Shown here piece after piece: positions 1,038-24,069 of a DNA stretch of 51,909 bases. The notes beneath the pieces were generated by a model. It was not told the origin of the DNA and did no database searches. It saw only the letters and a list, made by a program, of their open reading frames with translations. Every line of letters starts with the position of its first letter. The first letter of the stretch is position 1. A program made the position numbers and the translations under genes. The stretch covers positions 1-51,909 of the forward strand of contig JALJPK010000018.1 in NCBI GenBank assembly GCA_022968985.1, given 5' to 3'. This stretch comes from Pseudomonadales bacterium (GTDB taxonomy: Bacteria > Pseudomonadota > Gammaproteobacteria > Pseudomonadales > Natronospirillaceae).

Positions 1038-4000
1038 ATGAACATACGAAGTATATTTTTCAGTTTAAGTTTGTTAATCGCTTTAGGTAGCTGTGGCGGT
1101 GGTGCACCTCCTATAAAAGCTGTCAGTAAGATAGAAAGACAAGAGATGTCAATCCAACCTGTTGAGTCAAACGGAATGGTGACAATTAACTTAATTGACG
1201 ACATCGAAATGAGTGATGATGTTGATGCTGTATATACTTGGTATTTTGGTGATGGTTCAGAGCCGCAAGTTACTAATGTTGCATATATGGAGCATGAGTT
1301 TGCAGAGAATGGAAACTACGAAGTTTTATTGGTAATTACGGATGCCAATAATAATGCCGAGAAACTCAATGTTGAACTAACGATTGTTGTTGAGACCGCA
1401 TTTACAGAACCTAACCTCGATTTTACATATGAATCTAATAAATTAGAAATTTCTTTTACTTCAAAAGTGGCTGGCTTAATGGGTGATCAACCTATTTTCA
1501 GCTGGAACTTTGGTAATGGTCAAGTTTCTTCTGAAGCTAATCCTGTTCATACTTTCGATCAGCCAGGTTCATATACGATTTTATTATCAGTGAATGACAA
1601 TGAGTTGACTGTTACTCGTGACATCGAGGTATCAGATATTGCAAATACTTCCCCCACTGCATCAATGACTATAGTGGAACAAAATTTATTAATGATCAAA
1701 ACAAGTGCTACTGGTTCAATGGATCCAGAAGGTACCAACCTAACTTACTCTTGGGATTTTGGTGATAACACAGTATTAGACAATGCCAATATTTCTGAGT
1801 CACATACCTATGTAAATGCGGGTACTTATACAGTTAGCTTAACGGTTTCAGATGGTGAGCTTTCAGATAAAACTCAAACATCAGTAACTGTAATGGGTGA
1901 GATGAATGGTGTTGACTCATTAGTGCAGCAATCCATTGATGCGTTTATAACGACTCCTTGTAGTTTATGTCATTACGCTGGTGGACCTGGCGAAGGCAAC
2001 TTTGAACTGTCAAGGGACAACTTGACAGAACAAACAGTAACACAGACGCTTAAAAACTTAGTCAGCGCGGATGGTGGTAGAGATAAATTATCAAATCCAA
2101 TAGATGGTGGAAGTCTGGATGCTGATGGTGAACCTGTCCACTTAATATTAAGTAGTGAAAACGCCGATTTATGGAATGCTGTTATTGCACAAATGATTGA
2201 ACTAGTTGATAACGAAGAGCCACCAACAGGCCCTGTTGTTACAGCTGCGTTTACATTTGATGTTTCTGATCTAACCGTGTCGTTTGATTCAGCGGGTTCT
2301 TCAGATGGAACATATTTATGGGATTTTGGTGATGGTCAAGATTCAATTGAAAGCGCACCTACTCATACTTATGCGTCATCGAATGAATACACAGTAACGT
2401 TAACAGTCAGTGAAGAATCAGTAACCGCCCAAGATATTAAAAAAGTAGGTGCTTTTATTGGTAATTCAATAAGTGGTGCAGCTCTTTATGATCAGCAGTG
2501 TTTTGTATGTCACCAAGAACAGGGAATAGGTATTGATAAACAAATCGAAGCCCTTTCTGTTAATGCTTATTTAAAAGGGTTTAAAGAAGCATATCCAATT
2601 ATTAATATTTCTATGCCTAAAGAAGGTGAAGGGTTTGAGCCTGCTCATTGTGTAGGGCAATGTGCAAAAGACATTGAAGCTTATATGTTAACTTGGGATC
2701 CAATTGTGACTGAGGTGTCTTGTACTAAACCAGAAGATGAAACGTTATATGGTCCAAGGCAGATGCGTTTATTAACAATTGAAGAGTACGCTAATACAGT
2801 ACAAGACTTATTTGGTGTAGATGTTGATACATCAAACTTAACCGCTAATTTACAGATTCATGCGATGGATAACCATGTAACGGTTGGTGTGGAATACAAT
2901 CGATTAAAAGGCTTTGAAACAACATCACACTTAATAATTGATGAAATAGTGGCCAATAACTTTACATCAGTAAAAGGCTTAGAAAGTTGTATTTCTGATG
3001 GGGATTGTGCCGAGAAGTTTGTTTCAGATTTTGCACTTAGAGCATATCGTCGTCCATTATTACCGACTGAAATCGCACGTTATAATACAATATTTACAAA
3101 TACAGCTTATTCAATAAGTTTGGAGCCAATTGAGGTATTAGAAGCAGCGGTACGTTCAGCATTATTGTCACCTTATTTTTTATATCGTTCAGAAGTAGGA
3201 ATGACTAAAGTTGATTATGAAGCCTATATAGAAGAAGTGAATACACCTCCAGTTGTACCTATTACTACAATTGATCCAAGTGAACTGATGGGATCAAATG
3301 GCCAGAATTTGGAAAATGGAGTAATAAATGCGTATCAAGATGCTAAAGTCAATGTTTTATTTACAGGTAATGACGTAATTAAAGTGAATTTACATGCTGA
3401 ATCTCCAGCGCATAGTTTTGCTTCGATAACAATTGGAGATGATAAGCTTTGGGAAGGTGTTACTAGTGAGTTAGAAGAACTTGAAGTCTTTTATACTGGT
3501 GAAGCTGGTACATTTCCTTTAAAAATTAAAGCAGGTAATATGCCAGCAACACTTGGTTTAATTATCGTTCAAGAAAACATAATTTTCGAAGCGCCCGTTA
3601 TCATTGAATTTCCAGAAATTGATGATGATGCTTATGCATTATCCCCTTACGAAATTGCAACTTACCTTGCTTATACTTATACAGGCTCTATGCCAGATGA
3701 TACTTTATTAGCTGCTGCTGAAATTGGTTTAAGTACCGAGGCGGATGTTGAATCGCAGATTCTAAGATTAATGGATACCGATAAAGCAAGAGTACACTTT
3801 GGTAATTTTGCCGCACAGTGGTTAACTACCGATGCTGTGATTGATGCAGCCAAAGACGCGGTATTATTCCCAACTTATACAAAAGAAGTAAGACTGGCGA
3901 TGGCGCAAGAAGTACGTGAAATATTTACCAATGTATTATTTGACGACAGTGCATCATTCTCTGATTTGTATAACAGTAATTATACATTTGTAAATGACGT

Positions 4001-4796
4001 ATTAGCCGATTTTTATGGTATTCCAGGTGTGAACGGATCAGACTTTGAAAAAGTAGTGATACCTGAGCGTGGAGGTTTAATTACTTCTGGTGCATTCTTA
4101 AGTGCTTGGTCAAGCCCAACTGACAGTAAATTAATAATACGTGGCGTAAGATTACGTGAACGCTTTTTATGTCAGCATTTACCTCCATTCCCAAGTAATG
4201 TGGATTTAGATGAAATACGTTTAACACAAGCAGCAAAAGTAGTAGAAATATCCGAACAAAATAACGGTAATATTCGTCAATCTCATTTGGATTATATCAC
4301 TACCGATGTTGAAGCCTGTAAAGGTTGTCATGAATACATCATTAATCCTCTTGGTGTAGGTTTAGAAGATTTTGATGCAGTAGGTTTACCTCGTACTAGT
4401 TATTCAGCTAATGGTTTAAGTGTTGACTTTCAAGGGTTTGAGCCTGAAAAAGCAGCACATAATTCAACATTTTATGGTATCAATGATATTGATGATTCGA
4501 CTGAGTTTAGAACTTTCCAAGGTGCCAAAGAGTTAGGTGAAATTTTTGCTGGTGAAGACGTAGCTAAGGCTTGTCTAATCGAAATGGGTTTCCGTTATAT
4601 GATGGGTACCGGGCCAGACGAATTTGATCATGACAATAAAACACGTATTGTAATGACAACTGACGAAAAAATTGACTTTGAATGTGTGAGTTCAGTGATG
4701 ATGGCTGAAATGGAAAATCAATTAAGTCCAAAAGCTGCATTTATTAAAATGGGTTTATCAGACATTGTTCGTTTTAGAAAACAACGTAACCGTTAA
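1038..4796 (+). CDS. PKD-domain lipoprotein with CxxCH heme motifs and DUF1587/1595/1592/1588/1585 domains
   Basis: A 1252-residue protein. A short hydrophobic N-terminus ends in a lipobox (LGSC, Cys19), so it is predicted to be a lipoprotein. Three PKD-type beta-sandwich repeats occupy roughly residues 45-285 (YTWYFGDG, FSWNFGNG, YSWDFGDN) and a fourth lies near 400-470 (YLWDFGDG). CxxCH motifs occur at Cys308 (CSLCH), Cys488 (CFVCH) and Cys1094 (CKGCH); the second sits in a cytochrome c-like segment followed by a candidate Met ligand (SMPKEGEG). The C-terminal two thirds carries the domain series typical of planctomycete-type DUF1592 proteins: GPRQMRLLTIEEYANTV (DUF1587), AYRRPLLPTE (DUF1595), SPYEIATYLAY onward (DUF1592), RGGLITSGAFL to DFDAVGLPR (DUF1588) and a C-terminal DUF1585. 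A beta-rich insert lies between DUF1595 and DUF1592. Biochemical function is unknown; a heme redox role is inferred from the CxxCH motifs. The next gene is a DUF1552 protein 25 bp downstream, a pairing known for these families. Confidence 0.9.
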   Translation: MNIRSIFFSLSLLIALGSCGGGAPPIKAVSKIERQEMSIQPVESNGMVTINLIDDIEMSDDVDAVYTWYFGDGSEPQVTNVAYMEHEFAENGNYEVLLVITDANNNAEKLNVELTIVVETAFTEPNLDFTYESNKLEISFTSKVAGLMGDQPIFSWNFGNGQVSSEANPVHTFDQPGSYTILLSVNDNELTVTRDIEVSDIANTSPTASMTIVEQNLLMIKTSATGSMDPEGTNLTYSWDFGDNTVLDNANISESHTYVNAGTYTVSLTVSDGELSDKTQTSVTVMGEMNGVDSLVQQSIDAFITTPCSLCHYAGGPGEGNFELSRDNLTEQTVTQTLKNLVSADGGRDKLSNPIDGGSLDADGEPVHLILSSENADLWNAVIAQMIELVDNEEPPTGPVVTAAFTFDVSDLTVSFDSAGSSDGTYLWDFGDGQDSIESAPTHTYASSNEYTVTLTVSEESVTAQDIKKVGAFIGNSISGAALYDQQCFVCHQEQGIGIDKQIEALSVNAYLKGFKEAYPIINISMPKEGEGFEPAHCVGQCAKDIEAYMLTWDPIVTEVSCTKPEDETLYGPRQMRLLTIEEYANTVQDLFGVDVDTSNLTANLQIHAMDNHVTVGVEYNRLKGFETTSHLIIDEIVANNFTSVKGLESCISDGDCAEKFVSDFALRAYRRPLLPTEIARYNTIFTNTAYSISLEPIEVLEAAVRSALLSPYFLYRSEVGMTKVDYEAYIEEVNTPPVVPITTIDPSELMGSNGQNLENGVINAYQDAKVNVLFTGNDVIKVNLHAESPAHSFASITIGDDKLWEGVTSELEELEVFYTGEAGTFPLKIKAGNMPATLGLIIVQENIIFEAPVIIEFPEIDDDAYALSPYEIATYLAYTYTGSMPDDTLLAAAEIGLSTEADVESQILRLMDTDKARVHFGNFAAQWLTTDAVIDAAKDAVLFPTYTKEVRLAMAQEVREIFTNVLFDDSASFSDLYNSNYTFVNDVLADFYGIPGVNGSDFEKVVIPERGGLITSGAFLSAWSSPTDSKLIIRGVRLRERFLCQHLPPFPSNVDLDEIRLTQAAKVVEISEQNNGNIRQSHLDYITTDVEACKGCHEYIINPLGVGLEDFDAVGLPRTSYSANGLSVDFQGFEPEKAAHNSTFYGINDIDDSTEFRTFQGAKELGEIFAGEDVAKACLIEMGFRYMMGTGPDEFDHDNKTRIVMTTDEKIDFECVSSVMMAEMENQLSPKAAFIKMGLSDIVRFRKQRNR

Positions 4797-4821
4797 TTAC
4801 GCCAATATTAAGGTATTCAGT

Positions 4822-6123
4822 ATGAAAAAATTAAAAACACCTCAAGATGTACAGCGTCGTAATTTTTTAAAGACGGTTGCAAGTTCAGGTATTGCAGTCA
4901 ATACACTTAAAGCCAGTGCATTAGGTATGGGTATTATGGCAAGTCGAACTGCCGCTGCAGCAGGCCCAGGTGGTTTGAAGCGTGTAATATTTGTATATAC
5001 ACCCGACGGTGCACCAAATGGTACTTATACATTAAATAACGGCACATTAGGTGAAAATGCGGTAGGTTTAGAGGCTGTAAAAGACAATTGTATTATTTTC
5101 GACGACTGTACAACCGGTGGTAACGGTCACAGTGATGGCGGTTTAGGTATTTTAGGCGGGGCAGGTACACCACCTGCTGGTCAAGAATTCCGTATAGACA
5201 CTTATGATGTGCATTTAGAAAAATACCTAGGCGCGGCTTCGGTTATTCCCTCATTGCACTTAGGAGTTGAGTCAAACAGTGAGAATTGTATTGGTTTTCG
5301 TAGTAAAAACCGTATTAAATATCAGGACAATCCGATTGCTGCGTTTACAGGTATGTTTGGCGCTGGTGGTGAAGCGGTAGATCCCGCTTCAATCGCACGT
5401 AAAAAAGCCCCTTTTGAATCTTCATTAGCTGAAATTCGAGCAATTAAAGCTAAGTTAAGTGCATCTGAAGTTTTACGTATGGAAGAGCATGAAGAAGCCA
5501 TTGAGCGTATGATTGCTAACTTTGATCAAGGCACAACGGCGGGTTGTGATGATATTTCTCAATTTAAATATGGTCTTGATGGTACCGAAATTGGTGAATT
5601 TGCTAAAATCAGTAAAATGCAATGTCAGAATATTGTTGATGCCTTTAAATGTGATTTAACCAATGTAGCCACGTTACATTTAGGTAACCATTCAGCGGAA
5701 TTTACAATATCAGCAGATCCTGAGTTAGCTGCATTAGGTACTTACCATACCGCGGTACATTTTCCTGATACTATTGGTTATGGCGCTTATCGTAGGTTCT
5801 TCACAGAACGTTTAGCTGAATTAATTGCATTATTAAAAACTACAAAAGGATCTGACGATGAGTTTTTAATCGAAAGTACCCTTGTATTACAAATAACCTG
5901 TATGGGTAATGGTAATGCACATGACCAAGCCCAAGCACCATTCACTTTAGTGTCAGGATCAACTCAGATGGTTGGTGGGCGCGGATTTAATGCCGGTCAT
6001 AGTTATAATTTATTAGATACTGTGTCAGCAGCATTGGGTGTTGATGATCAAATGCCAAAATACGCATCAATTGGAACCGGTGATGGTGGTGGAGTTGTTT
6101 CTGGTTTATTAACGGCTGTTTAA
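4822..6123 (+). CDS. Tat-exported DUF1552 (HXXSHH-family) protein
   Basis: A 433-residue protein. I chose the ATG at 4822 because an AAGG sequence precedes it and because it gives a clean N-terminus with a twin-arginine motif (RRNFLKTVAS, Arg12-Arg13), a hydrophobic stretch and an ASRTAAAA cleavage region; an upstream TTG at 4765 would bury this signal. The body matches the DUF1552 family by its order of motifs: VKDNCIIFDDC, NGHSDGG, a DNPIAAFTGMFG segment, a C-terminal CMGNGNAHDQAQAPF and GHSYNLLDTVSAALG. The signature expected as HxxSHH appears as HTAVHF, so two of its conserved positions are changed. These proteins are commonly encoded beside DUF1592/DUF1588 proteins, as here. Function is unknown; export to the periplasm in folded, possibly metal-bound form is inferred from the Tat signal. 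Confidence 0.88.
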   Translation: MKKLKTPQDVQRRNFLKTVASSGIAVNTLKASALGMGIMASRTAAAAGPGGLKRVIFVYTPDGAPNGTYTLNNGTLGENAVGLEAVKDNCIIFDDCTTGGNGHSDGGLGILGGAGTPPAGQEFRIDTYDVHLEKYLGAASVIPSLHLGVESNSENCIGFRSKNRIKYQDNPIAAFTGMFGAGGEAVDPASIARKKAPFESSLAEIRAIKAKLSASEVLRMEEHEEAIERMIANFDQGTTAGCDDISQFKYGLDGTEIGEFAKISKMQCQNIVDAFKCDLTNVATLHLGNHSAEFTISADPELAALGTYHTAVHFPDTIGYGAYRRFFTERLAELIALLKTTKGSDDEFLIESTLVLQITCMGNGNAHDQAQAPFTLVSGSTQMVGGRGFNAGHSYNLLDTVSAALGVDDQMPKYASIGTGDGGGVVSGLLTAV

Positions 6124-6147
6124 TAATATTTAATATTTTTTGATAAT

Positions 6148-6178
6148 AAAGCCGCAATTTAAATTGCGGCTTTTTTTT
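6148..6178 (+). terminator. Rho-independent terminator
   Basis: GCCGCAATTT/AAATTGCGGC forms a perfect 10-bp self-complementary stem followed by eight T residues, 25 bp after the stop of the first DUF1552 gene. This ends the first two-gene unit. Confidence 0.92.
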
Positions 6179-6506
6179 GTCTAAGGGAAATGAAATAGGT
6201 GTGGAATAAAATTGTTATAAAATATTGAAGGCTATAAAAAAAATTGGAGCATAAGTTTAAAAATCCACATTTAAATGTCATGGACAAAACAAAAAAGCAA
6301 AGTTGATTTTACGTTTATTAATCGGTTTTTTTGAAACGATTAGTTGAGCGCAGAGCGAAGGATGATAATGCTATTGGTTTGTATTTTTTAATTAATAAAA
6401 GTGAAACAAAAGTCCCTGTTGCTGTCTTTTAATTTGTTTATAATAAACCGTTAATCTCTGTAAATTCCCTCAAAATTTTAAAAAGTTAACCAAAAGGATT
6501 AAAAAC
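6179..6506. other. Gene-free leader region of the second DUF1592 unit
   Basis: No gene, RNA or clear repeat was found. The region is AT-rich and must contain the promoter of the next gene; an AAGGA ribosome binding site precedes the ATG at 6507. I could not fix a specific promoter. Confidence 0.5.
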
Positions 6507-9500
6507 ATGTCTTTGAAAGGTATTGTTTTAAATGTGCTAACTGTTTTATGTTTAATCAGTTGTGATGTTAAAAAAGAAAGCGATTCTACAATCACTCTTC
6601 CAAGCCCCACTCAAAATGTCGTTATAAGTAGTATCAGTATTGAATCCAATATAACAATACCCCATGAAAGTAATGGCTTAGTTATAATTGATTTAACAGA
6701 TAAAATCGACATGACTGATGATGTGAATGCTTTATATACATGGTATTTTGATGGTGAGAATTTAGATTCTGTTACAACTACTGATCCGAGAAATTATTAT
6801 AATTATACTCAAAATGGCAGTTATCAAATAACACTGATTATCTCCGATGTAAATGAAAAAGCGCCAGCAGTTACTCTTGAGATGTCGATTGAAATCACAA
6901 GCCTAATAACCCCTGCAAAACCAATATCTTTACCCGTCATTAATCAGGGACATGTTTCATTTGATCTTAGTAATCAATTTGAAATGTCTGATTTTGAAAA
7001 CCCTGAATTCACTTGGGACTTTGGTGATGACTCAAATCAGCTCATCACAACAACCCCTGTTTTAGAGCATAATTATGTTTTAAATGGCGAATATGAAGTG
7101 ACTGTAATTATTACAGAAAAACAAAATCCAACAATATTTGAAAGTGTTAGTTTAATAGTTTCAATTGAAAATATAGTTGTCGATGAGATTAATGAAAAAC
7201 CCATTGCCAGTTTTGCTTATTTTATCATTGATAATGTAGCCACTTTTGACGCTTCAGAATCTTATAATCCAGTGAATAACCCTTTAAGTTATTTTTGGGA
7301 TTTTGCCGATGGATTAACTAGTAACGAAAAATATCCAGAGCATGTTTATACACAAAGTGGAATTTATGCAGTTAAGTTAACTGTAAGTAATGGTGTTAAT
7401 TCTGTATTTGTTATACATGATCTTACGGTTCATATTGTCGAAAACACTGCTCCTGTAGCCAAACTTACATACACACGAGATAGCAATATTCAAAACCTGT
7501 ATACATTTGATGCTTCGAACTCAACCGATGTTGATGGTGACTCATTAACTTACAGTTGGGAATTTGATAATACTACCTCTAGCAGTATGCTGAGTTCTCA
7601 TACCTTCGATACTAATAAAGATTACTGGGTAAGCTTAACTGTTTCAGATGGTAAATTAAGCGCTACAGAATCAATTTTAATCACTGTATTTATAGTGCTT
7701 GAAGGCGACCCAGTTGCTGGTGAGGTTTTATATCAAACTCAATGTGCAATTTGTCATGAAGGGGATGATAACAATAGATACGGTGAAGGTGATCATTATT
7801 CTATGGTCGAACCAATTGAAATTAATTCTTATCTTAATGGATATTTGGATTTATTCGCAAAAATTGATAACTCTATGCCTGCTGAAAATCCTGAGTTATG
7901 TATTAATCAATGTGTCGCTGACATCGAAGCGTTTATGAAAACTTGGGATTATCAATCCACAGAAATATCCTGTTTAATTCCTGATGAAGAAACAAAATTT
8001 GGTTCTAGACAGTTAAAATTATTAAACATTAATGAATACACAAACTCAGTCAAAGACATTTTAGGAATTGATATTGATGACTCTCAATTGTCGGCTGACT
8101 CTAAAGTGTATGGTTTTTCTAACCTATCTGAAACGGCGATTGATTATTCACGTTTTCAAGGTTATCAGTCTGTTGCCATTTCAACTTCTAAAATATTATA
8201 TAACAATGATTTCATAACAGTAGTGGGTTTAGAAAACTGTGTAACACAAAATGATTGTGCCGATAAATTTATAGCTGAAACATTAACACGTTTTTTTAGA
8301 CGTGAAATAACCCCCGCTGAAAGCGTTACTTATTCAGATTTATTTGATGTGGAATTTGTTACAAAAGGCAATCAAAAAGCAGGCTTGAAATTAGCTATTA
8401 GAACCGCACTAATGTCGCCTAATTTTTTATATCGTTTTGAACTGGGTATGACCCAAGCACAATATGAAACCCATAATGCGCAGTTAACGCAGCCGGGTTC
8501 TTGGCTGTTTGATGAATATAATGGAAGTGATTTTCATGAAAGTTTTATTAGTGGTCCAACATTAGAAAATAGTGAATTGTCTGCATATAACACTGCTTAT
8601 TTAGAGCATAATTTTACAGGGAATGACTTAATTAAAATCAGCCTGTTAGCACAGACAGATAATCAAGAGGCGCAATTATTAATTGCTGATGAAGTAATTT
8701 GGTCTGGCCAAACATCACAGATGACAACGATAGAGTTAAGTTATAGTGGTCTTGCAGGAGTACAAGACATTAGACTAAAAGCGGGCAGCAGAGAGCTGAT
8801 AATTGGTGAATTAAAAATTGGACCACAATTAATTTATCAGGTGCCATTAACCGTACCTAATGTAGATGAAGGTGTTTATGTATTAACCCCTGCTGAAATA
8901 GCTACTTACCTTGCATTTAACTTTACAGGCACCACACCAGACGACACATTATTAACCGCTGCAATTAACGATGAGTTATTAACAGACAGTCAAATAAAAG
9001 CGCAAATAAAACGTCTTTTAAATACCGATTCAGCAAAAACACACTTTGCTGATTTCGCCGCTCAGTGGTTCGCAACCGACGCAGTATTAGACGCAAGTAA
9101 AGACCAAGTGCTTTTCCCAAGTTATACAGATGAAGTACGTCAATCAATGGCACAAGAAGTTCGTGAAATATTTAACGATGTAATGTTTGATGACAACGTA
9201 CCGTTCTCTGAACTATACGATTCTAACTACACCTTCCTTAATCAAACCCTTGCTGATTTTTATGGGATTGGTGGGGTAGCAGGTGATGATTTTGTTAAAA
9301 GATACACACCAGAGCGTGGCGGAATTATAACGTCGGGCGCATTTTTAAGTGCTTGGAGCTCACCAACTGAATCGAAGCTAGTATTGCGAGGTGTAAGAAT
9401 TCGTGAGCGTTTAATGTGTCAGCATTTTCCACCATTCTCATCAAATATTGATTTAGGTAATATTTATGAACAACAAGCAAACAAAGTCCAAGAGATAAAA

Positions 9501-10064
9501 GAGCAAGAAAATGGTTTGATTAGGCAGCCACATTTAGACTTTATACAAACCGATGTAAGCGCATGTCAGTCATGTCACGAATACATCATCGACCCATTAG
9601 GTTTAGGTCTAGAAGACTTTGATGCTGTAGGTTTACCACGCACGCAATATGCAAACGGTTTGTCAGTTGATTTCACAGGGTTTCACCCAGAGCAAGAAAC
9701 TCATCAATCAGCTTTGTATGGCATTAACGATATATACGATTCCTCAGAAAGAATCGCTTTCCAAGGTGCTAAGCAGTTAGGTCAAATTTTTGGAACGGGC
9801 GGCGCGTCACAAGTAGCTAAAAGTTGTTTGATTGAAATGGGTTTTCGTTTTATGACAGGCACAGGCACACAGGTTTATGATTTTGATGATAAAACTTTTC
9901 GGGTGTTATCTTATTTTGAAAAAATGGATAACCTCTGTACGGCAAACTTAATGTCGAGCGCAATGGATGTTACAGGTAATCCTAAAGATGCATTCATTGA
10001 ATTGGGACTATCCGATATAGTTCGTTTCAGAAAAGAATTCAATACAACTCAAAACAATCAATAA
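6507..10064 (+). CDS. Second PKD-domain DUF1592-series lipoprotein with CxxCH motifs
   Basis: An 1185-residue paralogue of the protein at 1038-4796. A lipobox (LISC, Cys19) predicts a lipoprotein. Four PKD-like repeats lie in roughly residues 45-395 (YTWYFDGE, FTWDFGDD, YFWDFADG, YSWEFDNT). CxxCH motifs are at Cys413 (CAICH, cytochrome-like, followed by SMPAENPE as candidate axial Met) and Cys1020 (CQSCH, inside DUF1588). The first paralogue's extra CSLCH segment and its fourth PKD downstream of it are absent. DUF1587 (GSRQLKLLNINEYTNSV), DUF1595 (RFFRREITPAES), DUF1592, DUF1588 (RGGIITSGAFLSAWSSPTES) and DUF1585 follow in the same order. The C-terminal half is much closer to the paralogue than the PKD half, so the repeats evolve faster. 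An AAGGA site about 10 bp before the ATG supports the start. A DUF1552 gene follows after 31 bp. Confidence 0.9.
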   Translation: MSLKGIVLNVLTVLCLISCDVKKESDSTITLPSPTQNVVISSISIESNITIPHESNGLVIIDLTDKIDMTDDVNALYTWYFDGENLDSVTTTDPRNYYNYTQNGSYQITLIISDVNEKAPAVTLEMSIEITSLITPAKPISLPVINQGHVSFDLSNQFEMSDFENPEFTWDFGDDSNQLITTTPVLEHNYVLNGEYEVTVIITEKQNPTIFESVSLIVSIENIVVDEINEKPIASFAYFIIDNVATFDASESYNPVNNPLSYFWDFADGLTSNEKYPEHVYTQSGIYAVKLTVSNGVNSVFVIHDLTVHIVENTAPVAKLTYTRDSNIQNLYTFDASNSTDVDGDSLTYSWEFDNTTSSSMLSSHTFDTNKDYWVSLTVSDGKLSATESILITVFIVLEGDPVAGEVLYQTQCAICHEGDDNNRYGEGDHYSMVEPIEINSYLNGYLDLFAKIDNSMPAENPELCINQCVADIEAFMKTWDYQSTEISCLIPDEETKFGSRQLKLLNINEYTNSVKDILGIDIDDSQLSADSKVYGFSNLSETAIDYSRFQGYQSVAISTSKILYNNDFITVVGLENCVTQNDCADKFIAETLTRFFRREITPAESVTYSDLFDVEFVTKGNQKAGLKLAIRTALMSPNFLYRFELGMTQAQYETHNAQLTQPGSWLFDEYNGSDFHESFISGPTLENSELSAYNTAYLEHNFTGNDLIKISLLAQTDNQEAQLLIADEVIWSGQTSQMTTIELSYSGLAGVQDIRLKAGSRELIIGELKIGPQLIYQVPLTVPNVDEGVYVLTPAEIATYLAFNFTGTTPDDTLLTAAINDELLTDSQIKAQIKRLLNTDSAKTHFADFAAQWFATDAVLDASKDQVLFPSYTDEVRQSMAQEVREIFNDVMFDDNVPFSELYDSNYTFLNQTLADFYGIGGVAGDDFVKRYTPERGGIITSGAFLSAWSSPTESKLVLRGVRIRERLMCQHFPPFSSNIDLGNIYEQQANKVQEIKEQENGLIRQPHLDFIQTDVSACQSCHEYIIDPLGLGLEDFDAVGLPRTQYANGLSVDFTGFHPEQETHQSALYGINDIYDSSERIAFQGAKQLGQIFGTGGASQVAKSCLIEMGFRFMTGTGTQVYDFDDKTFRVLSYFEKMDNLCTANLMSSAMDVTGNPKDAFIELGLSDIVRFRKEFNTTQNNQ

Positions 10065-10095
10065 TTAATTACGATAGATAAGTAGGTAATAAAAA

Positions 10096-11413
10096 ATGAA
10101 AAATCTAAAAACGCCTCAAGATGGTCGTCGTCGTAATTTTTTAAAAACGGTAGCGAGTTCATCAATAGCAGCAACAACATTAAAAGCTAGTACATTAGGT
10201 TTAGGATTAATGGCAAGTCGTATAGGTTTTGCTGCTGGCCCAAATGGTATAAAACGTTGTGTAATTGTTTATATTCCAAACGGTGCAGCACCAGACACTT
10301 ATAGATTTAATAATGATGGTACATTAGGCCCATCGGCAGCTGCATTAGAATCGGTAAAAGAAAATATCGTAATTTTTGATGGGTGCAAAACTGCAGGGCG
10401 TGGTCACAGTGATGGTGGAGTAGGAGTATTAGCAGGCTCATCATTAACTGATGAAACCTATGATGTGACCCTAGAAAAAGTCATAGGCATAGGCCAACAA
10501 AAAGTAGAAATAGATATCAGAAATTATGCTAAAGGAATTTACTACCTCCAACTTTCTGTTGACGATGAAACAGTTGTAAGACAACTATTAAACACAAGGT
10601 AGTACTAGTATTAGTCGTCGTGATGGTGCCAGTGTAATGTATATAGACAATCCAAGACTTGCGTATACTCGATTGTTTGGAGATATAGCTGGCGAAGAAT
10701 CTGAATCAGACGGCATGTTAAAAGAGCCCTATTCACATAATTTAGCTGAGTTAGCTGCGCTTAAGTCTAAGTTAGGTCCACAAGCAATAGCGCGTATTGA
10801 AGAACACGAAGCCGCGATAAAAAGAGCAATATTAAATTTAGAACAACAAGTGGATGTAGGATGTGACAATCAAGTTCAATCTACATATGGCTGGGAAAAC
10901 ACAGGATCTAAGCCTGAAGTAGGGCACTTTACCCAAGTCAGTAATCAGCACTGTGACACAATCGCCTTAGCGCTTAAATGTGGCTTAACTAATTTAGTGA
11001 CACTAAGTTTAGGCACCAGCGATGTTGATTTTACAGTCCCAGAATTTGCTGAATTAGGTCCGTACCACACTGTAATTAACTCAAATACACCGCACTACAT
11101 TAAATTTAGAAATTACCTGTCTGAACGTTTGGCCTATTTAATTAATGTATTAAAGACAACCACAGATGAAAATGGTGATAGTTTATTGGATAGCACTATA
11201 GTGCTGCAAGTGACTTGTATGGGGGATGGTAGTGCACATGATCAAGCAAACGCCCCTTTCACTATGGCAACAGCAACAAAAAATATGATCGGTGGACGTG
11301 GTGTTACTGTTTCGCATAGTCATTCGTTATTAGATACGGTGACAGCAGCACTTGGGGTAGAAGATCAAATGCCTCAATATGGTGATGGAGCAGTTCCTAG
11401 CTTGTTGCTTTAA
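10096..11413 (+). pseudogene. Second DUF1552 gene, interrupted and frameshifted
   Basis: The 5' part (10096-about 10489) encodes a twin-arginine N-terminus (RRRNFLKTVASS) and the start of DUF1552 closely matching the paralogue at 4822-6123 up to YDVTLEKVIG. The reading frame then runs into unrelated sequence and stops at TAG 10600-10602. From about 10601, in the +1 frame, DUF1552 resumes with SISRRDGASV and YIDNPRLAYTRLFG and continues to TAA at 11411-11413 (CMGDGSAHDQANAPF, SHSHSLLDTVTAALG). Compared with the paralogue about 15 residues are missing at the junction. The downstream part has an ATG at 10637 and could be made as a separate 258-residue fragment, but it would lack a signal. The HxxSHH signature is lost (HTVINSN). 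I consider it a recent pseudogene, or an assembly artefact if reads do not support the junctions. Confidence 0.85.
10490..10600 (+). other. Foreign-looking insert inside the second DUF1552 gene
   Basis: About 110 bp with no counterpart in the paralogous DUF1552 gene. In the upstream frame it encodes KVEIDIRNYAKGIYYLQLSV followed by a short tail ending LLNTR and a stop. The pattern G-x3-V-x-I-D-(I/L)-x-N-Y-x-x-G-I-Y, then a hydrophobic strand and a basic C-terminus, resembles the end of Bacteroidota type IX secretion (type A) sorting domains. No transposase, terminal repeat or target duplication is visible. Breakpoints are inferred from comparison with the gene at 4822-6123 and may be off by several bases. 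Confidence 0.6.
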
Positions 11414-22951: not shown

Positions 22952-23950
22952 TTAACCTCCAATCATGGCTAAATGTTTGGTTGAACCTGTATTGCCATTT
23001 TGTAAAAAGTGACTGTCTTTTTTATAACCTAATTGGTTTTGCAGTTGTTTTATCAATTCATCTTGTTTAACCGATGATTGCATAAAAGGTCTTAGATCAA
23101 ATCCGCCGTCACCAAATAAACATAAATGTAATTTACCTTTTGCGCTGATTCTCAAACGATTACAGGTTTTACAAAAGTCGTCACTATAAGGTGTAATAAA
23201 GCCAATGTTGCCTTTTGAATCTTTGTGTTCGTATTCTGTAGCCGGGCCAGCTGTGATGGATTTTTTAATGGATTGCCAGCCAAGTGATGTAAGTTGAGCA
23301 ATTAAGTTATCGGCACGAACATGTTCTTTATCAAAAAACTTTTTGTTATCGCCTGTTTGCATCAACTCAATAAAACGAAGTGTAATCGGTTTGTCTTTTA
23401 CCCAATTAATAAAATGTAAAAACTCGTTAGCATTAAACGATTGCATTAAAACTACATTAACTTTGATAGCTTTAAAACCTAATAAAACAGCTTGCTCAAG
23501 CCCGTTTAAAATTTCATCAAGAATAGAGTGCCCTGTAATTTTTTGAAACGTAGACGGGTGCAGGCTGTCAATTGAAACGGTTAAGGCGTCTAGCCCTGCG
23601 TCTTTCCATTGTTTGATATATTTATTGATTTTGTAGCCGTTGGTTGTCATGGTGACTTCTTTAATGCCCGGAGTGTTTTTCAGCAGTTTAATGATTTCAA
23701 CGTGGTCTTTACGTAAAACAGGCTCACCACCGGTGATACGAATCTTTTGCACACCTAATTTTGCTAACGCAGAGGCGCTTTTTTGAATTTCATCAAGAGT
23801 TAAAAACGATGTGTCGGCGCTTTTTTTATAACCGTCGGGCAAACAATAGTCGCACTTAAAATTACACACATCGGTGATAGATAAACGCACATAGCGAAAT
23901 TGACGCCCTTGGGGGTCTGTTAACCCTGGCGCCTTAAATTGAACAGTCAT
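22952..23950 (-). CDS. moaA: GTP 3',8-cyclase MoaA (radical SAM)
   Basis: A 332-residue radical SAM enzyme. The first cluster motif is CNFKCDYC near residue 30, the second set of cysteines is CKTCNRLRISAKGKLHLC near residue 255, and the protein ends in a Gly-Gly tail (MIGG) as MoaA does. It catalyses the first step of molybdenum cofactor synthesis from GTP. I chose the ATG at 23950, with AAAGG five bases upstream, over an upstream in-frame start at 23962. It heads a moaA-mobA-moaB-moaD-moaE series; moaC, needed for the next step, is not in the window. Confidence 0.95.
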   Translation of the reverse strand: MTVQFKAPGLTDPQGRQFRYVRLSITDVCNFKCDYCLPDGYKKSADTSFLTLDEIQKSASALAKLGVQKIRITGGEPVLRKDHVEIIKLLKNTPGIKEVTMTTNGYKINKYIKQWKDAGLDALTVSIDSLHPSTFQKITGHSILDEILNGLEQAVLLGFKAIKVNVVLMQSFNANEFLHFINWVKDKPITLRFIELMQTGDNKKFFDKEHVRADNLIAQLTSLGWQSIKKSITAGPATEYEHKDSKGNIGFITPYSDDFCKTCNRLRISAKGKLHLCLFGDGGFDLRPFMQSSVKQDELIKQLQNQLGYKKDSHFLQNGNTGSTKHLAMIGG

Positions 23951-23959
23951 ATACCTTTC

Positions 23960-24062
23960 CAAATCGGGAGACTAGGTCGTTTCCGGCCTAACCCGGTAAA
24001 CTCAAGGTTTACGGTTAACAGCTCATAGTGGTATACCTTAGAGCTGAGAACTTCGGTTATTG
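23960..24062 (-). ncRNA. Putative Moco riboswitch upstream of moaA
   Basis: The moaA leader on the minus strand contains three successive hairpins. The first, at 24046-24019, has stem CAGCTC/GAGCTG and includes CTAAG on one side and TATG on the other, the core of the 11-nucleotide GNRA tetraloop receptor. The second pairs TAACC-GTAAAC with GTTTAC-GGTTA (about 24015-23988). The third has a GAAA tetraloop (complement of 23980-23983). A GNRA loop docking into a tetraloop receptor is a known feature of the Moco RNA motif, which controls moaA operons in Gammaproteobacteria. The match is structural; I did not align to the Rfam model. Confidence 0.65.
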
Positions 24063-24069
24063 AACTAAA

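Follow-up and report, generated by a model that had tools for sequence, protein, structure and literature searches.

How does a short reading frame that resembles the sorting tail of a Bacteroidota secreted protein come to lie inside a gene of a gammaproteobacterium? The question is raised by a contig of 51,909 nt (C90 in our numbering; 'the window' below means this whole stretch of DNA), which belongs to a 4.80 Mb assembly in 273 contigs with completeness 90.85 and contamination 2.68. The gammaproteobacterial label is one that we take to fit the gene content of the host. Positions 1038–11413 hold two tandem modules, in each of which a DUF1552 gene comes after a long gene that carries PKD and DUF1587/1592/1595/1588 domains, and it is the DUF1552 gene of the second module (PF07586, HXXSHH; 10096–11413) that is interrupted, after codon 131 (Table 1). 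Elsewhere in the window, a molybdenum/tungsten cofactor riboswitch (RF01055, 67.5 bits, 23938–24069, minus strand) lies directly upstream of a gene that by eye resembles moaA; the listed TTG start of this gene at 23962 overlaps the riboswitch, and translation probably begins at a more internal codon.

Table 1. Features of the interrupted DUF1552 locus and its tandem counterpart (positions in the window)
Feature	Position	Strand	Basis
Reference tandem DUF1552 paralogue, uninterrupted	4765..6123	+	PF07586 E = 6.2e–27; 49% identity to 3' part of broken gene
Partner gene directly upstream of broken gene: PKD and DUF1587/1592/1595/1588 domains, single open frame	6507..10064	+	ORF list, domain search
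5' part of second DUF1552 gene: domain start behind a leader that looks twin-arginine-like by eye	10096..10488	+	ORF, PF07586, alignments
Left junction: two tandem copies of the hexamer ATAGGC	10483..10494	+	Read from sequence
Putative foreign segment: GQQKVEIDIRNYAKGIYYLQLSVDDETVVRQLLNTR, like the C-terminal tail of T9SS type A, and TAG stop	10489..10602	+	PF18962, TIGR04183, AKGIYYLQ scan
3' part of second DUF1552 gene, frame differs from 5' part	10603..11413	+	ORF 10637–11413; PF07586 E = 2e–12

Our data confirm that the gene is broken, as the first-pass annotation of this locus had proposed: it is split between two open reading frames, each of which matches a part of the PF07586 profile. 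The first (10096–10602, 168 aa) starts as a DUF1552 protein, with profile positions 1–73 matched at residues 54–118 (E = 2.1e–5; 24.7 bits against a cut-off of 30), and ends like a T9SS tail at an in-frame TAG (10600–10602); its product has no match to profile positions 74–307 of 307. The second, in another frame (10637–11413, 258 aa), matches positions 133–282 with 47.8 bits, and the frame that contains it runs uninterrupted from 10592 as far as its stop codon, 11411–11413 (273 aa). Two pieces, each covering part of the profile, place the gene in PF07586. It is like known DUF1552/HXXSHH genes in its neighbourhood, beside a DUF1592/1588 gene, and in possessing both domain halves, but differs from them in being interrupted.

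The extent of loss and gain was read from an alignment of 17 DUF1552 loci (both strands), in which the halves of the broken gene were entered as separate rows. One locus (L019), truncated where its contig begins, stops short of the lesion; 16 sequences cover the place. The host protein can be followed as far as LEKVIG (codon 131, last base 10488) and is picked up once more near STSISRRDGASVMYIDNP, at ∼10601. Between LEKYLG and YQDNP the tandem paralogue (L015) has 29 residues, and 28–30 residues separate the flanking points in the seven closest matches that cover the place, namely L015, L018 and L020 from the same genome, L010 and L016 from G003, L011 from G019 and L012 from G017. Nine more distant members have 16–43 residues there and are little informative. 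In the broken gene the final 12–14 residues of this interval are left, according to the placement of the right edge, which corresponds to a loss of 15–17 codons (45–51 nt) relative to the tandem paralogue and of 42–54 nt relative to the seven closest matches. In place of the lost stretch stand about 109–114 nt of unrelated DNA, with the reading frame shifted behind them. The lesion is thus a replacement and not a simple insertion, and the earlier estimate of ∼45 bp lost, ∼110 bp gained and a shift of +1 proves right. The same segment in homologous DUF1552 genes, a finding that the annotation had named as speaking against its own reading, occurs in none of the 16 sequences covering the place. 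Both halves of the gene are open apart from the lesion, which points to a recent event or to an artefact.

The edges of the segment are uncertain by a few bases (left ∼10489, right 10597–10602). On the left the blur is due to the tandem hexamer ATAGGC, which is possibly a trace of microhomology. Further repeats lie near the joins: AAAAAGT stands on either side of the left one, the segment is flanked by direct repeats, one 14 nt long (86%) and one an exact 9 nt, and there is a small palindrome at 10600–10613. It should be noted that short two-copy families in a repeat search of this kind are often due to chance. An 8-nt perfect inverted match between the segment interior (10540–10547) and the right join (10597–10604) was also seen, and it too is perhaps fortuitous. 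Transposition was rejected as the origin of the segment, since part of the host sequence is missing and the two segment edges are not bordered by an exact duplication. The G+C content of the segment (31%, versus 39–40% for the gene halves, 35% for the window and 36% for a Bacteroidota-like contig of the same bin, C141, described below) is uninformative at such a short length.

What the segment encodes can be approached from its 33-residue frame. This frame matches the type A sorting domain of type IX-secreted proteins in both Pfam (PF18962, E = 0.0015, 19.2 bits) and NCBIfam (TIGR04183, E = 0.0026, 17.7 bits), in each case below the curated cut-off (27 and 23 bits, respectively). The match covers positions 46–72 of the 75 in PF18962; the presence of only the last part of the domain probably explains the low scores. 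A match of the same tail to TcfC (PF16967, E = 0.098) was set aside as weak. In addition we scanned 84,980 genomes of the genome_contigs collection for every DNA spelling of the motif AKGIYYLQ, with F admitted for L, and obtained 26 stretches with 28 places. In 17 of the 28 the motif ends a long frame (at least 80 open codons upstream) with a stop 13–19 residues further on, mostly 15, and 11 places fail this test of a long-frame C-terminus. The stop of our segment follows the motif after 16 residues, at the extreme C-terminus; this distance lies within the 13–19 range, so the segment probably carries the stop of the donor gene itself. Where the titles of the 17 places name a group, it is Bacteroidetes, Bacteroidia, Saprospiraceae, Flavobacteriales or Foetidibacter, all of which we take to be Bacteroidota; the title of L032 reads uncultured bacterium. 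One of the stretches found (L037, JACZWC010000015.1) has three long frames within 8 kb that end in similar AKGIYYLQ sorting tails.

The distribution of such tails among genomes bears on the same point. With a 38-residue tail query (E ≤ 0.01), matches were found in 9 of 98 genomes drawn evenly from the phylum of G102, the other 89 being without one, and in 10 of 99 if G102 itself, a centre picked for its motif, is counted. A set of genomes chosen by the motif, and hence biased, gave 11 of 12. Six of the phylum matches, five in drawn genomes and one in G102, were inspected, and each of them is followed by a stop only a few residues later. Of the host's 96 relatives, the own genome was the only one that this query matched, leaving 0 of the other 95, and at E ≤ 0.01 PF18962 has no place in those 95 either. 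In the own genome it has two, the segment (E = 0.00435, the second-best) and a protein on C141 (E = 4.2e–8, 35.8 bits). It should be said that below the cut-off PF18962 also has matches at E ≤ 0.01 in Deinobacterium chartae, Bacteroides ihuae and Lactococcus lactis, three of the 14 named genomes used as controls, and at E ≤ 1 in six of the 14.

These controls matter for the idea that the resemblance is a matter of chance, that is, that a local scramble (a deletion filled with DNA copied from the vicinity or from another part of the own genome) shifted the frame into something tail-like. Two of the control genomes with sub-cut-off matches, D. chartae and L. lactis, lie outside Bacteroidota, so the profile score by itself is not decisive; the scores of the segment are below both cut-offs, the small repeats near the joins, the inverted one included, could reflect such a scramble, and, the assembly being ∼91% complete, a source might sit in the ∼9% of the own genome that may be missing. 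We nevertheless consider this explanation improbable. In its motif, in where that motif sits in the frame and in the distance to the stop the segment conforms to T9SS tails; at E ≤ 0.01 no relative among the 95 matches the tail or has a PF18962 place; and outside the locus the own genome offers no better DNA match than 24 nt at 88% identity (E = 0.34). With no match there above about 29 nt, a copy from elsewhere in the own genome was rejected. The T9SS reading rests jointly on score, motif, stop distance and the contrast between groups of genomes, and on these the phylum of the segment is likely Bacteroidota. The earlier suggestion of a T9SS-like, Bacteroidota-like tail is in this sense supported by both profiles, by the motif scan and by the lack of a match at E ≤ 0.01 in the 95 relatives.

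The donor can be indicated only at the level of phylum, since the listed tail matches share just 27–54% identity with the segment. No near-identical donor turned up: none of 395 Bacteroidota genomes matched at E ≤ 2e–5 and none of 36 genomes of one order at E ≤ 1e–5, both weak negatives because relatives of the donor may be unsampled. The plasmids searched gave no match to the segment. A phage source was rejected as well, with three weak phage matches (E 0.2–0.6).

It is more difficult to dismiss the view that the contig, not the chromosome, was rearranged: an assembly or library chimera in which a Bacteroidota fragment from the sample was joined into a gene that is intact in the organism. The assembly is fragmented, with the contig number, completeness and contamination given above, and its bin holds C141 (G000, locus L065, 1–4234; 4.2 kb), which encodes a protein whose T9SS tail scores above the PF18962 cut-off, the match extending two codons beyond the stop of the protein, together with a TonB-dependent receptor that has a CarboxypepD_reg-like domain. 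This contig is probably Bacteroidota contamination of the bin, and Bacteroidota DNA was therefore probably present in the sample. The lack of PF18962 places at E ≤ 0.01 in the 95 relatives also speaks for this view, as does the otherwise undamaged state of the gene, which an artefact would produce. Yet a chimera needs two joins within ∼115 nt, each without a visible long overlap with the host, and k-mer assemblers require shared words of ∼20 bases or more for each join. From a chimeric read one would normally expect a single join and no return to the original locus ∼45–51 nt further on. C141 itself was rejected as the donor (its longest match to the segment and flanks is 14 nt with one mismatch), although other contigs of the genome it comes from could have supplied the fragment, and the partner gene upstream is open. 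On balance we regard a chimera as a serious possibility that we tend to doubt. The two alternatives put forward in the first-pass annotation, illegitimate recombination with foreign DNA or a chimeric assembly, were the right ones, and we lean to a real event.

What would such an event look like? Short-patch double illegitimate recombination (SPDIR) replaces a short stretch of host DNA, and microhomology at the joins is one of its features. The 2016 paper on SPDIR is said to have reported candidate events from genome comparisons as well. As assembled, the contig displays a replacement of this kind. In SPDIR (Harms et al. 2016, cited in PMC7192050) a short unrelated segment enters through two illegitimate joins in a process linked to natural transformation; double illegitimate recombination in Acinetobacter baylyi (Hulter and Wackernagel 2008) likewise has two such joins, and an excerpt of PMC4437187 calls this type of recombination independent of any homology (see also PMC13344027, PMC8116780 and PMC5312590). 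In contrast to these systems, the event here would be a natural one, deduced from a draft genome, and would cross phyla.

An SPDIR-like capture of Bacteroidota DNA that recently inactivated one of 12 DUF1552 paralogues is accordingly the reading to which we incline, with somewhat better than even confidence. The source piece would be the 3' end of a Bacteroidota gene for a type IX-secreted protein; it would have been taken up as free DNA, captured through two closely spaced illegitimate joins, perhaps with the help of microhomology, and would now be part of the chromosome of the cell. For the claim in its most specific form, a natural and recent inter-phylum micro-capture by double illegitimate recombination of ∼110 nt of Bacteroidota DNA together with the stop of the donor, our judgement is evenly balanced. 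If real, the event belongs to a known kind and is unusual in being both natural and inter-phylum. A gene of the ComEC/Rec2 family (PF03772) is present in the host genome and also in 10 of 14 controls, E. coli among them; this family is so widespread that the gene does not prove competence of the host.

For the gene itself, the capture would have brought a stop and a frame shift, leaving a product cut short at 168 residues whose sorting tail is of no use to the cell. The N-terminal domain of the translocon protein SprA (PF14349) was not found in the ∼91% complete assembly, while it is present in three of three Bacteroidota genomes, these having been reached through their tails; a separate first search for SprA had matched nothing in any genome. 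With SprA not found in its assembly, the host has no visible use for a sorting tail. In motif and stop distance the segment is like the T9SS type A domain (PF18962/TIGR04183, Por_Secre_tail), but unlike a full member it is partial, scores below cut-off and stands in an assembly where SprA was not found. These observations weigh on the proposal that the truncated protein and its new tail were retained for a purpose, as a domain swap with a function. In its favour, an uninterrupted frame runs through the fusion and reads both parts in phase; most of DUF1552 is cut off, however, and with no SprA found in the genome and no PF18962 place at E ≤ 0.01 in the 95 relatives, we hold such a swap to be scarcely credible. 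Under the capture that we favour, the second DUF1552 gene would have lost its function.

This loss was probably tolerated. With the 3' half of the broken gene as a query, the own genome gives 12 DUF1552 matches at E ≤ 0.001, 10 of them in stop-to-stop frames of 401–466 aa, another truncated at the start of its contig and the last the broken copy itself, so that intact-length copies would probably make the loss bearable. The same query matched five of the 95 other relatives, and identities outside the own genome are 26–37%. Among the relatives searched a close orthologue of the broken gene was not found; in genome_contigs, 25 stretches fit the pattern of the 3' half and none was confirmed. An expansion of DUF1552 to 12 matches looks unusual among the relatives compared.

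Short captures of this kind are supposed, according to a passage of PMC7192050, to be insignificant in natural populations. If the interruption is an artefact of assembly, it is a warning that small foreign inserts can pass the quality checks applied to bins. If it is true, such captures reach a detectable frequency in wild populations in spite of that supposition, and a case in which a protein sorting signal reveals the donor phylum would provide direct natural evidence of them. The finding also suggests a cheap survey, in which phylum-specific T9SS type A tails are sought inside interrupted genes of organisms that have no T9SS.
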